A stretch of 64,000 nucleotides of DNA from an uncultured Roseovarius sp. (GTDB lineage: Bacteria; Pseudomonadota; Alphaproteobacteria; Rhodobacterales; Rhodobacteraceae), in the NCBI GenBank assembly GCA_947496175.1, contig CANMBU010000002.1:124001-188000 (forward strand), given 5' to 3'. Positions 15,948 through 20,081 of the stretch are shown here, piece by piece. The notes beneath the pieces were generated by a model that saw only the letters and a list, made by a program, of their open reading frames with translations, was not told the DNA's origin and ran no database searches. Every line of letters starts with the position of its first letter. The first letter of the stretch is position 1. The translations under genes were made by a program, and so were the position numbers.

Positions 15948-17276
15948 ATGCAGGACTGGCTGAAAATGAGCGCTGCGGATTTGGGTCGTGGAATTGAGGC
16001 TGGTGAGATCGGCCCAGTGGCTCTGACCGAGACGTATCTGGCGGCAATAGATGCGCATCCTGAGCGCGAGCGCATCTATTCTGTGGTGACCTATGACCGC
16101 GCCCGCGCCGAAGCTCAGGCCGCCGAAGAACGGGCCAAGGCAGGGCTGCGTCTGGGACCTCTCGATGGGGTGCCGATCAGTTGGAAAGACCTCTTTGACA
16201 CGGCGGGCGTGGCAACAGAGGCGGGCAGCAAACTGTTGGAAGGGCGCGTGCCGGGCAAAGATGCAGAGGTTTTGCGCAATGCCACCGCCGCGGGTCTGGT
16301 GTGTCTTGGCAAAACCCATATGAGCGAACTGGCGTTTTCCGGCCTAGGCCTGAATCCGATGACCGCCACGTCACCCAACATCAATGATCCCGAGGCCGTT
16401 CCGGGCGGCTCATCGTCGGGGGCTGCGTCGAGCGTCGCCTTTGATCTTGCGGCCTGTGGTATCGGCTCGGATACGGGCGGCTCGGTACGTATCCCCTCGG
16501 CCTGGAATGATCTGGTCGGGCTAAAGACCACCTCCGGGCGCGTGTCGCTCAATGGTGTGGTGCCGCTCTGCGCGCGGTTTGACACGGTTGGACCTTTGTC
16601 GCGCTCGGTTGAGGACTGTGCCCTGATGTTGGCAGCGCTAGAGGGTGGTAAGGCGGCGGATTTGCAAGGTGCCTCGTTGCAGGGGATGCGGTTCGCTGTG
16701 CTGCAGACCGTTGCGATGGATGATGTGCGCGAGGCTCCACTCAGAGGGTTCGAAGAGGCTGTTGACCAGCTTCGAGAGGCCGGGGCCAGTGTTGAACCCA
16801 TTGAAGCGCCCGAAGTGGCCGAAGCCATGCCGCTTTCCGGTGTGCTCTTTACCTCCGAAGCCTATGGGACATGGGGCGATGTGATCGAGGCCAGCCCGGA
16901 CAAGATGTTTGCCCCGATTCTGGAGCGGTTCCGCTCGGGCAAAGAGTTCCGTGCGGCTGACTATGTTGCGGCTTGGCGCAAGCTGGATGCGTTGCGACAT
17001 GACTGGAACGACCGCGTTGCAGGGTTCGATGCGGTCGTCCTGCCCACCGCCCCCATTCTGCCGCCCAATGTCGAGCGATTGATGACGGATGAAGACTATT
17101 ACGTGACCGAAAACCTTCTGTCCTTGCGCAACACCCGTATCGGCAATTTGATGGGCCTCAGTGCTATGTCTTTGCCGACAGGTGTACCAAGCTGCGGGCT
17201 TATGCTCTGTGGCAAACCGTTTGAGGAAGAGCGTCTGCTGCGCGTGGCGCGAGCCACAGAACTGGCGCTCGGCTAA
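15948..17276 (+). CDS. Amidase signature family enzyme
   Basis: A 442-residue hydrolase of the amidase-signature family, related to GatA. The Ser-cisSer-Lys triad is intact: Lys80 in SWKDLFD, Ser155 in GGSSSGAASS and Ser179 in GSDTGGSVRIP. The 75 and 24 residue spacings equal those of GatA. It lacks GatB or GatC neighbours, so it is more likely a free amidase than a tRNA amidotransferase subunit. The ATG at 15948 has GGAG 6 nt upstream and is chosen over an ATG at 15915. The ammonia-lyase-like gene starts 3 to 9 nt after the stop, so the two are co-transcribed. The natural substrate is unknown. Confidence 0.9.
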   Translation: MQDWLKMSAADLGRGIEAGEIGPVALTETYLAAIDAHPERERIYSVVTYDRARAEAQAAEERAKAGLRLGPLDGVPISWKDLFDTAGVATEAGSKLLEGRVPGKDAEVLRNATAAGLVCLGKTHMSELAFSGLGLNPMTATSPNINDPEAVPGGSSSGAASSVAFDLAACGIGSDTGGSVRIPSAWNDLVGLKTTSGRVSLNGVVPLCARFDTVGPLSRSVEDCALMLAALEGGKAADLQGASLQGMRFAVLQTVAMDDVREAPLRGFEEAVDQLREAGASVEPIEAPEVAEAMPLSGVLFTSEAYGTWGDVIEASPDKMFAPILERFRSGKEFRAADYVAAWRKLDALRHDWNDRVAGFDAVVLPTAPILPPNVERLMTDEDYYVTENLLSLRNTRIGNLMGLSAMSLPTGVPSCGLMLCGKPFEEERLLRVARATELALG

Positions 17277-17285
17277 AGGATGCAA

Positions 17286-18782
17286 ATGCTGCGTCTTTCT
17301 GGTCAGGGTTTGTCGCCCGAGGCGCTAGAGATCGCATCGCATGGGCTATGCCAAGTTGCGATCAGCGAAAAGGGACTTGCGCGTATGGCCAAAGCGCGCG
17401 CTTTGGTTGACAGGGCCGTCGCCGAGGGCACGCCTGTTTACGGGGTGACAACCGGCTTGGGCGCGCGGGCCACAGAAGTACTGGATGCAGGCACATTGGC
17501 CAACTTCTCGCGCCAGACGTTGGAGGGCAGGGCGCAGGACATGGGCGCGTCGCTGCCGCCTGAGACGGTGCGCGCCACGTTGATCGTGCGACTGAACACC
17601 ATGCTTCTGGGTCATAGCGGTGCGCGCCCGGAGGTGGCGGAGTTTTTGGCGCAGGTGATCAATGCAGGGCTTACGCCGGAGGTTGGGTCGCTTGGGTCCA
17701 TTGGTGCGGGTGATCTGGTGATCAATGCCGCGATGGGGCGGTCCTTGCTGGGCGAGGGTGAGATGCAAGGCAATAAAGGTGTTCGGCCTTCCCGCGACGC
17801 CCTGAACGACTTTGGTCTGAGACCGCTTGATCCGGCGCCACGCGATGGCTTGGCGCTTGCCAATCACAGCGGGTATTCTGCGGCACGCGCGGCGATGACC
17901 CTTGCGAAAGCCACGCGCGTATACAGTGCCACTCAGGCCGCTGCGGCCCTATCGCTGGAAGCGTTCCGCGCAAATCTTGGGCCATTTGAGGAACGCGTTC
18001 TTGCGGTCAAGCCATTGCCTGGACAGGGAAAGGCTGCGGCGTATCTGCGGGAGCTGTTGAAAGGCAGTTCTCTTTGGCAATCGGGCGCGGCCCGGCGGTT
18101 GCAGGATCCGTTGTCCTTTCGCAATATTCCGCAAATTCACGGCGGTCTGGAAACCGCCTTGGCGCATCTGCGGCAGGTCGTTGAGATCGAGCTGAACGGG
18201 TCCAGCGACAATCCCACGACACTCTTCGAAGACGAAGAGATCCTGTCCTGCGGGGGTTATCACACCACCGAACTTGCACTTTCTGTCGAGGGCGTGAGCC
18301 GTGCTTGGCAACATGTGGCCATGGGGCAGGTCGCGCGCATCGCGCGCATGATGGAGCCAGAGCTCACCGGTTTGCCGCTTTTCCTGGCCAAGCCAGACAG
18401 CGGGTCAAATGGTTTTGCGCCGCTGTTGAAAGTGGTCGAGGCACTGGCGGCAGAAATAACACAAGCCGCACAGCCCGTGCCGGTTTGGCCCAGCATAAAT
18501 GCGCGCGGTGTCGAAGATGCGCTCAGCGCGGGACCTGCCACGCTCCACGCCTTGTCGCGAGTTGTTGAAATGACTGCAAAACTGTCTGCAATTGAACTGG
18601 TGATCGCTGCGCAAGGTGTTGATTTAAGAGGAACTTCCCAAGAACTTGGGGGCCCGATGCAAGACTGGCATGCCCGTGTCCGCCACCATGTTGCACCGCT
18701 TGATATTGACCGTCCGATGGGTCGCGAGATCGACACGCTGTCAGATGCTTTGCACGCTTTCACGTGCGCGGAAGCGAAGTAA
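17286..18782 (+). CDS. HAL/PAL-fold ammonia-lyase-like protein lacking the MIO serine
   Basis: A 498-residue member of the histidine/phenylalanine ammonia-lyase fold. Canonical enzymes build the MIO cofactor from Ala-Ser-Gly in GxxGASGDL. Here the aligned triad at 140-142 is Gly-Ala-Gly (GSLGSIGAGDL), so the cyclising Ser is replaced by Ala141. The Tyr in QDxYSxR is also replaced, by Leu276 (LQDPLSFR). Other fold residues stay: Tyr52 in YGVTTGLG, NGSSDNPT and the Glu in VEDALS. It is therefore likely a non-MIO enzyme or a pseudoenzyme. AAGG sits 6 nt before the ATG at 17286; an ATG at 17280 is too close to it. It is tightly coupled to the amidase gene. Confidence 0.85.
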   Translation: MLRLSGQGLSPEALEIASHGLCQVAISEKGLARMAKARALVDRAVAEGTPVYGVTTGLGARATEVLDAGTLANFSRQTLEGRAQDMGASLPPETVRATLIVRLNTMLLGHSGARPEVAEFLAQVINAGLTPEVGSLGSIGAGDLVINAAMGRSLLGEGEMQGNKGVRPSRDALNDFGLRPLDPAPRDGLALANHSGYSAARAAMTLAKATRVYSATQAAAALSLEAFRANLGPFEERVLAVKPLPGQGKAAAYLRELLKGSSLWQSGAARRLQDPLSFRNIPQIHGGLETALAHLRQVVEIELNGSSDNPTTLFEDEEILSCGGYHTTELALSVEGVSRAWQHVAMGQVARIARMMEPELTGLPLFLAKPDSGSNGFAPLLKVVEALAAEITQAAQPVPVWPSINARGVEDALSAGPATLHALSRVVEMTAKLSAIELVIAAQGVDLRGTSQELGGPMQDWHARVRHHVAPLDIDRPMGREIDTLSDALHAFTCAEAK

Positions 18783-18902: not shown

Positions 18903-20081
18903 ATGTTCCCCGAGCGGTTTTCGAACCTTCCGGAATATGCGTTTCCGCGTCTGCGGAGCTTGCTTGATGCGCATCCAGCAGGCGGTGAAACTGTGCATAT
19001 GACCATCGGCGAGCCGCAGCACGCTTTTCCGGATTGGGTCAGCGATGCGATCACCGAACATGCAGGTGAATTTCGCAAATACCCGCAAAACGAGGGCCTG
19101 CCCGAGTTAAATGGAGCGATGTGCGACTGGATCGCGCGGCGTTTTGGCGTGACCCTGAACCCTGATCAGAACATCATGGCGCTGAACGGAACCCGTGAAG
19201 GGCTCTACAACGCGATGATGGCGCTTTGCCCGGAAACCAAGGGCGGCAAGACACCGATCATTCTGCTGCCGAACCCGTTTTACCAATGCTACATGGTCGC
19301 GGCGTTGAGTGTGGGCGCGGAGCCGATGTTCCTGCCGACGTCGAAAGAAACCGGGTTTCTGCCGGATTTTGACAGCCTTTCGGAGGATGTTCTGAACCGT
19401 GTGGCCGTGGCCTATATGTGTTCGCCATCAAATCCGCAGGGGGCTGTGGCCAGTGCCGATTACTGGCGTAACCTTCTGGCTTTGGCGGAAAAATACGACT
19501 TCAAAATTTTTGCGGATGAGTGTTATTCCGAAATCTACCGCGACACGCCGCCCACCGGCGCGCTGGAAGTTGCGGACCGGACTGGTGCGGACCCTGAACG
19601 TGTTGTGGTCTTCAACAGCCTGTCCAAACGCTCCAACCTGGCGGGAATGCGCTGCGGGTTTGCAGCGACCGGGCCGGAAAGCACCAAACGTATCCGGCTC
19701 TTGCGCTCTTACGCAGGCGCGCCATTGCCCAACCCGCTGCAGCGCGCCGCGGCACGCGTTTGGGCCGATGAGGCGCATGTTGAGGAAAATCGCAGGCTTT
19801 ACCAAGAGAAGTATACCGTTGCGGATGACATCCTGGGCGATGTTCCGGGGTACCGCTCGCCCGAAGCAGGGTTTTTCCTTTGGCTGCCTGTTGAGGACGG
19901 CGAAGAGGCCGCATTGAAACTCTGGACAGAAACCGGCGTTCGGGTGCTTCCCGGCGCATATCTGAGCCAGGATGCCCCGGGTGGCAATCCGGGCAAACAG
20001 TATATCCGGGCCGCGATGGTGGCCCCAAAAGATGAGGTGGCGCACGGCCTGACACGGCTGCGCGACTGCCTTTACACATAA
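18903..20081 (+). CDS. Class I/II PLP-dependent aminotransferase, DapC-like
   Basis: A 392-residue fold-type I aminotransferase. It resembles the alphaproteobacterial succinyldiaminopimelate aminotransferase used in lysine and peptidoglycan precursor synthesis. Visible are [14 protein letters not shown] near the N-terminus, [39 protein letters not shown] and the PLP lysine in [17 protein letters not shown]. The Arg for the substrate carboxylate is expected in the C-terminal region. The gene lies 17 nt before ftsK, and 120 nt after the lyase-like gene with no clear signal between. The reaction assignment is from family resemblance; a different amino acid substrate is possible. Confidence 0.85.

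Follow-up and report, generated by a model that had tools for sequence, protein, structure and literature searches.

A conserved MIO-less branch of the aromatic-amino-acid-lyase family in an uncultured Roseovarius and its co-occurrence with an OCD/mu-crystallin-family gene

Results

The lyase locus

The window, by which we mean the whole 64,000-nucleotide stretch of Roseovarius DNA analysed, carries a gene for a protein of the aromatic-amino-acid-lyase family between an amidase gene and an aminotransferase gene (Table 1). The frame from 17286 to 18782 on the forward strand is open and encodes 498 residues from the second methionine, where the earlier note had placed the start. The frame stands, but the start is better set upstream: it is probably at 17280, because the first methionine is kept and the second lost in the orthologues of G054 and G031 (MQTLRL and MQPLRL), which are 91% and 94% identical to the window lyase. 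The Pfam profile PF00221 spans residues 14-466 of the 498 with 396.9 bits (E 1.5e-118). On the HutH equivalog model TIGR01225, on the other hand, the protein scores 319.3 bits against a curated cut-off of 539.15 and so falls short of membership, and it is likewise far under the cut-offs of the NCBIfam HutH models. Against four orthologues the lyase gives dN/dS values of 0.155-0.245, which are those of a gene under purifying selection, although this is laxer than for the neighbouring aminotransferase (0.033-0.034) or for the OCD companion described below (0.040-0.066). Given these values the gene does not look like one in decay, in agreement with its earlier description as intact.

Table 1. Positions in the window of the lyase gene, its flanking genes and the residues discussed in the text.
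Feature	Position	Strand	Basis or remark
Amidase (PF01425), core syntenic neighbour in the genus, not a partner by co-occurrence	15948..17276	+	
MIO-less aromatic-amino-acid-lyase-family protein (PF00221)	17280..18782	+	500 aa from the upstream ATG; residues numbered here from the second Met, 17286
Tyr52, column of HutH Tyr53 and ergothionase Tyr53	17439..17441	+	alignment
Arg82, where HutH and T. denticola ergothionase carry His	17529..17531	+	alignment
Shortened MIO loop, residues G137-L144 (GSIGAGDL)	17694..17717	+	alignment
QDPLSFR (273-279), with Leu276 in the column of catalytic Tyr280 and Arg279 retained	18102..18122	+	alignment
Lys382, mark of the eight-letter short-loop branch, common to ergothionase	18429..18431	+	alignment
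Glu410, column of HutH Glu414 and ergothionase Glu411	18513..18515	+	alignment
Class I/II aminotransferase, next gene after the lyase	18903..20081	+	

Active-site residues and relationship to ergothionase

A canonical HutH is present elsewhere in the window genome, and alignment of the two proteins shows the Ala-Ser-Gly triad to be absent from the window lyase, which reads GSIGAGDL where the genome's own HutH reads GSVGASGDL. The earlier note had described Gly-Ala-Gly in place of Ala-Ser-Gly; the triad serine is indeed missing, and the alignment places no other serine in the triad, but the change is better described as a loop shorter by one residue than as a substitution. The catalytic tyrosine of the QDxYS motif is, as had been noticed, a leucine (Leu276 in QDPLSFR). 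His83 of HutH is replaced by Arg82 and a valine of HutH by Lys382. What the window lyase does have in common with the MIO-dependent HutH is the fold and the columns of Tyr53, Gln277, Arg283 and Glu414, in HutH numbering.

The best sequence match in the PDB is the ergothionase of Treponema denticola (6s7j, E 1.7e-60), with HutH at 1.1e-52. An AlphaFold2 model built from an input alignment of 27 sequences (pLDDT 91.3, pTM 0.92) gave the same protein as the top match both in Foldseek (E 3.9e-33, TM 0.92, with HAL at about 1e-29) and in VIA-align (Z 44.5, rmsd 2.4 over 491 aligned residues), and together with the Pfam match bears out the earlier remark that the rest of the fold is well kept. The predicted fold alone barely discriminates ergothionase from HAL and the aminomutases, because these follow in VIA-align at Z 41.5-43.4. 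The residues do separate an ergothionase-like from a HAL-like protein. Ergothionase (6S7J/6S7Q) has the same PF00221-type fold, a loop that is also one residue shorter (SSIGEGDI), no MIO, a leucine at the Tyr280 column and, in the columns where the window lyase has them, Lys, Glu, Tyr and Arg. Catalytic roles are ascribed to the Tyr53, Lys, Glu411 and Arg columns of ergothionase, with Tyr53 as the proposed base. The two proteins differ in that they are only 29% identical, in that T. denticola ergothionase has His for Arg82 and Ser for Asn193, and in that the T. denticola enzyme lies on a separate long branch of the tree; we know of no OCD partner for it. Ergothionase releases trimethylamine and lacks MIO (PMC13405746). 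As judged from sequence and model, the window lyase would work like ergothionase, which is not to say that it is a proven ergothionase.

Conservation of the short loop across the branch

The window protein was aligned with the relatives found here, canonical HutH proteins and ergothionase to give 169 rows. Of these, 80 had been picked by the branch pattern RR[LVI]QD[PA][LI]S[FIL]R, so that in these loci Leu or Ile at position 276 is there by construction, and some genes entered twice through two collections, so that the rows are not independent. The loop has eight letters in 118 rows, six in 10 and nine, with the full triad, in 41. The 128 short-loop rows comprise the 80 picked ones and 48 that were not picked by the pattern, the window protein included. 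Tyrosine is found at position 276 in all 41 full-triad rows and in none of the 128 short-loop rows, and its absence from the 48 unpicked rows is not by construction. Lys382, which is not part of the search pattern, is present in 114 of the 118 eight-letter rows and in none of the six-letter (0/10) or full-triad (0/41) rows; Arg82 occurs in 98 of the 118.

A tree was made from 76 of the rows, after pruning at 62% identity, by a quick method with SH-aLRT support only and the loop columns left in. The rows with and without MIO fall on the two sides of one of its branches (SH-aLRT 96). The window protein groups with that of G015 at 98, among rows that are mostly from Roseobacter-type and other Proteobacteria, while 6S7J, at the end of a branch of length 1.81, joins nearer to HutH and the six-letter group at 88, apparently outside the subclade of the window protein. 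To the question raised with the first reading, whether the altered triad is conserved in a clade, the answer for the MIO-less state is yes: a single branch parts the short-loop rows from those with the full triad. The lyase is a real, conserved and MIO-less protein.

Some relatives with the short loop do keep Ala-Ser before the Asp (GSIGASDL in 7 rows, GSVGASDL in 5), which would be the starting point for supposing that the window protein is an MIO-type ammonia-lyase after all, one that forms MIO from an unusual triad or acts on ordinary amino acids. We consider this very improbable. The loop of the window protein is itself one residue short with no Ser after the Ala, Tyr280 is absent, the HutH score lies far below its cut-off and the genome has its canonical HutH elsewhere.

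A second MIO-less type, with the six-letter loop GSVGYL or GSVGYI, was seen at loci L112, L118, L187-L191, L195, L196 and L204. It has Tyr at the position of the Lys and His at that of the Arg, two of its rows fall next to HutH in the tree, and no OCD match was obtained in the 8 genomes of the phylum sample that have this loop. A very divergent PF00221 protein of G473 (L168:6277-7725), with the loop GNGGAGEV, adjoins an OCD gene and has relatives at 49-56% identity in G535, G628, G705, G612 and G515. The 2.7 Mb genome G437 of the class sample shows an unusual expansion of the family to 52 PF00221 matches, many of which are pairs of fragments from a single gene; G596 has 9.

The adjacent amidase

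The stop codon of the amidase and the start of the lyase are 3 bases apart in the window, so the two genes are probably co-transcribed, and the earlier note had taken this pairing as a clue to the pathway. The counts do not sustain this, and the amidase was rejected as a guide to the pathway. It is present in 57 of 60 genomes of the genus (E 1e-100). A search with the lyase gave matches in 52 of the 60, mostly HutH, and the MIO-less lyase itself (match E 1e-67 or better) is in 8, all 8 with the short loop; no other match is better than 4e-50, and the triad is present in the 13 canonical HutH proteins inspected among these. Six of the 8 hold the lyase at the amidase locus. Conversely, at 30 amidase loci the next gene is the lyase in 4 and the aminotransferase in 18, with neither within the 1.5 kb flank in 8. 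Because the amidase is so widespread and so seldom followed by the lyase, it is the older resident of the locus and the lyase a later arrival there. Joint action of the lyase and this amidase, on an amide substrate for instance, accordingly seems improbable to us, even though the spacing suggests co-transcription and the gene order is kept in 6 genomes of the genus. An amidase match was found in just 3 of 80 lyase loci scanned more widely, L216 and L217 with the gene order of the window and L292 with a 40% match, and in G054 (L033), where the lyase is intact, the amidase match is spread over two frames, through decay or a sequencing error.

Co-occurrence with an OCD/mu-crystallin-family gene

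A gene of the OCD/mu-crystallin family (PF02423) lies near the lyase in 11 of 12 relatives outside the group of the window (L038-L049 except L047). In the window genome the corresponding gene is unlinked to the lyase (G000:C3:556859-557836) and sits between a 202-aa frame that follows an lpxB-like gene and an mnmA-like gene, these names being assigned by eye. Members of this family, among them the archaeal alanine dehydrogenase 1OMO, pyrroline-2-carboxylate reductase and the iminosuccinate reductase BhcD, move hydride to or from C=N bonds. Alanine dehydrogenase is the companion's best PDB match (E 7.1e-38), and the companions differ from the named enzymes of the family in that the three tested score below the cut-off of every listed NCBIfam model.

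Presence of the two genes was compared in four samples of genomes, with all counts and tests uncorrected for relatedness. In the genus the OCD gene (E 1e-60) is found in exactly the 8 of 60 genomes that have the MIO-less lyase and in none of the other 52 (Fisher 3.9e-10, relatedness uncorrected). Among 295 genomes of the family, 11 have the lyase (1e-55), 12 the OCD gene (1e-85) and 10 both, that is, the OCD gene is in 10 of 11 genomes with the lyase against 2 of 284 without; at these cut-offs G282 has the lyase without the OCD gene, and G160 and G340 the reverse. In the class sample (385 genomes) 37 match the lyase at 1e-55, of which 30 have a locus that could be classed by its loop and 7 are unclassed. 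All 12 of the classed genomes with the eight-letter loop, G000 included, have the OCD gene; of those with six-letter loops, G688 has it and G515 has no match at the cut-off. The phylum sample (369 genomes) adds, besides G000, 8 genomes with the eight-letter loop, 6 of them of one genus, and the OCD gene is in all 8, against 1 of 19 further match genomes tested (G912, where it is about 2 kb from a canonical HutH). Over the samples combined there are 37 distinct genomes with the lyase, and 36 have the OCD gene.

The reverse pairing is weaker: of the 27 class genomes that have the OCD gene, 12 have the lyase with the eight-letter loop. When the remaining 15 and G515 were searched with PF00221, other non-canonical relatives came to light in several, but G407, G528, G623, G718 and G550, all with the OCD gene, have canonical HutH only or no PF00221 match. 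The pairing is therefore one-way. The OCD gene lies among hut genes in Paracoccus saliphilus and on a Comamonadaceae plasmid. It also occurs in hut operons with no short-loop lyase alongside: the 'hutH' next to it in the Comamonadaceae (L212) and that of G912 (L201) carry the full ASG triad.

Besides a lyase with another chemistry, a binding protein or a regulator had been suggested at the outset. Loss of the MIO triad and of Tyr280, and a dN/dS above those of the OCD gene and the aminotransferase, could be read in favour of such a fold without catalysis. Tyr52, Arg279, Lys382 and Glu410, common to an active enzyme, are however kept across the branch, and the gene co-occurs with one of an enzyme family, and we regard a non-catalytic role as unlikely. 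A lyase with another chemistry is the better supported suggestion, because ergothionase, the closest characterised protein by both sequence and fold, is MIO-less and agrees with the window lyase in the short loop and in its Leu, Lys, Tyr and Glu residues.

Gene neighbourhoods of the relatives

Named genomes were scanned with an alignment query, which gave 251 relatives of which 80 loci were kept, and 20 canonical HutH loci served as the control; a query with the single window protein gave 28 pattern matches in the named genomes and no confirmed relative. The OCD gene is in the flanks of 42 of the 80 lyase loci and of none of the 20 controls. It is in 26 of the 52 loci that have at least 3 kb on both sides, and in 35 of the 42 it is under 300 bases from the lyase.

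HutU is in the flanks of 5 of the 80 loci, where about 0.26 would be expected if there were one copy per 4 Mb. Genes for hutU, hutI, hutH or hutC were seen in lyase flanks at L038, L039, L207, L210, L241, L242, L270, L275 and L281; in G003 (L038) and G040 (L039), both of the genus, HutU is close to the pair and a second match, HutH-like, lies about 10 kb away. Genes of a betaine-type ABC transporter are near the pair at L039, L157, L207, L210, L213, L277 and L292. In Rhizobium pRL12 a row of genes encodes a HutC-type repressor, the lyase, a betaine-binding protein, the OCD enzyme, a PhnD-like protein and an ABC transporter, an arrangement that is similar in Martelella. In Streptomyces chartreusis, as judged from the open reading frames and similarity, the OCD and lyase genes overlap by four bases and are divergent from a betaine-type ABC operon. 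The linkage to betaine transporters nonetheless rests on such single operons, because genes for betaine-binding proteins turned up no more often at lyase loci (2/80) than at canonical HutH loci (1/20) when the loci were scanned systematically. Choline-type sensors rank ahead of EgtUC among the matches of the betaine-binding proteins, which does not speak for ergothioneine specificity. In the window genome itself no hut or betaine gene was recognised next to either member of the pair, an assessment made partly by eye. Transporter types vary between the lyase loci, and substrates may for that reason differ between subclades.

Other neighbours were less informative. No hint of the substrate came from membrane-desaturase-like genes (5/80 lyase loci against 1/20 controls), Dpp-type binding proteins (7/80 against 3/20) or TRAP transporters (1/80 against 1/20). 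MttB, of the trimethylamine methyltransferase family, is beside the lyase in 11 of 80 loci and 0 of 20 controls (p 0.11), or in 8 of 80, one of them the window's own contig (L252), and 0 of 20 at 50% identity or more (p 0.35). Its adjacency was set aside as evidence for the pathway, being not significant; MttB is moreover common, with 8 copies in the window genome, where it also sits near the hut operon. That operon (G000:C4:65683-74532) has, by eye, acyl-CoA-dehydrogenase-like and CoA-transferase-like genes between hutU and hutH. In Actinomycetota, at L213:11522-13041 and L274, amidohydrolase-like and cysteine-dioxygenase-like genes, again by eye, join the OCD-lyase pair.

Discussion

An MIO-less lyase is the likely class of chemistry for the window protein. 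HutH relies on the MIO electrophile to expel ammonia; a trimethylammonium group can leave without MIO if the beta proton is acidic enough. In the mechanism that we propose, which follows the published chemistry of ergothionase, no MIO would be made; the short loop together with Lys382, Glu410, Tyr52 and Arg279 would bind the side chain of the substrate, acidify it and take the beta proton, and a group that is already a good leaving group, most likely the trimethylamine of an amino-acid betaine, would depart and leave an alpha,beta-unsaturated acid. We consider a histidine betaine the likeliest substrate, ergothioneine first and hercynine second. Bound by Lys382 and Glu410, its thioimidazole or imidazole ring could make the beta proton acidic, with Tyr52 as the base. 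The OCD enzyme might then transfer hydride to C2 in the C=N bond of thiourocanate and release sulfide, yielding urocanate for the ordinary hut pathway, a step that would fit the linkage to hut genes and the sulfate-exporter-family genes found in L207, L209 and L211. The leaving group, the substrate and the OCD reaction we infer. Our best model, held at a little short of even confidence, is that the protein is an MIO-independent carbon-nitrogen lyase of the ergothionase kind that frees trimethylamine from a histidine betaine, the product passing by way of the OCD enzyme towards urocanate.

It is quite possible, if rather less than evenly so, that the MIO-less lyase instead removes trimethylamine or another amine from a different amino-acid betaine, and that the OCD enzyme serves that other pathway in the reduction or oxidation of an imine. 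The exchange of His for Arg82 in 98 of the 118 eight-letter rows is a change in the pocket, the transporter types are not constant, most loci have no hut gene (HutU in 5 of 80), and the CoA-transferase, SDR and MaoC genes that adjoin the lyase at the Rhizobium loci would be in keeping with beta-oxidation of some unsaturated acid that is not urocanate. Set against this are the nine loci with hut genes in the lyase flanks listed above, and the action of the closest known enzyme on a histidine betaine.

In the open-access PMC literature we recognised no report that links an OCD enzyme to an MIO-less lyase and found no experiment on an OCD step from thiourocanate to urocanate, and ergothionase was the sole MIO-less member of the lyase family that we met there. 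A thiourocanate desulfhydrase from gut anaerobes is mentioned in PMC13405746. The annotated public records examined name members of the branch 'histidine ammonia-lyase' or 'aromatic amino acid lyase'. The histidine-betaine model could, more speculatively, amount to an undescribed route in which the lyase eliminates trimethylamine from ergothioneine to give thiourocanate and the OCD enzyme, of the imine-reductase type, desulfurises this reductively to urocanate. Such a route, which we put forward as doubtful, would be spread over the Alphaproteobacteria (Leisingera, Ruegeria, Rhizobium, Martelella and others), some gammaproteobacterial MAGs and the Actinomycetota, hidden under the name of HutH.

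A large MIO-less branch with a strongly co-occurring second gene presents a putative two-enzyme pathway that is directly testable. If the histidine-betaine reading is true, it would remove false calls of histidine degradation and would provide a genetic handle on the turnover of ergothioneine and the release of trimethylamine in soil and marine bacteria.
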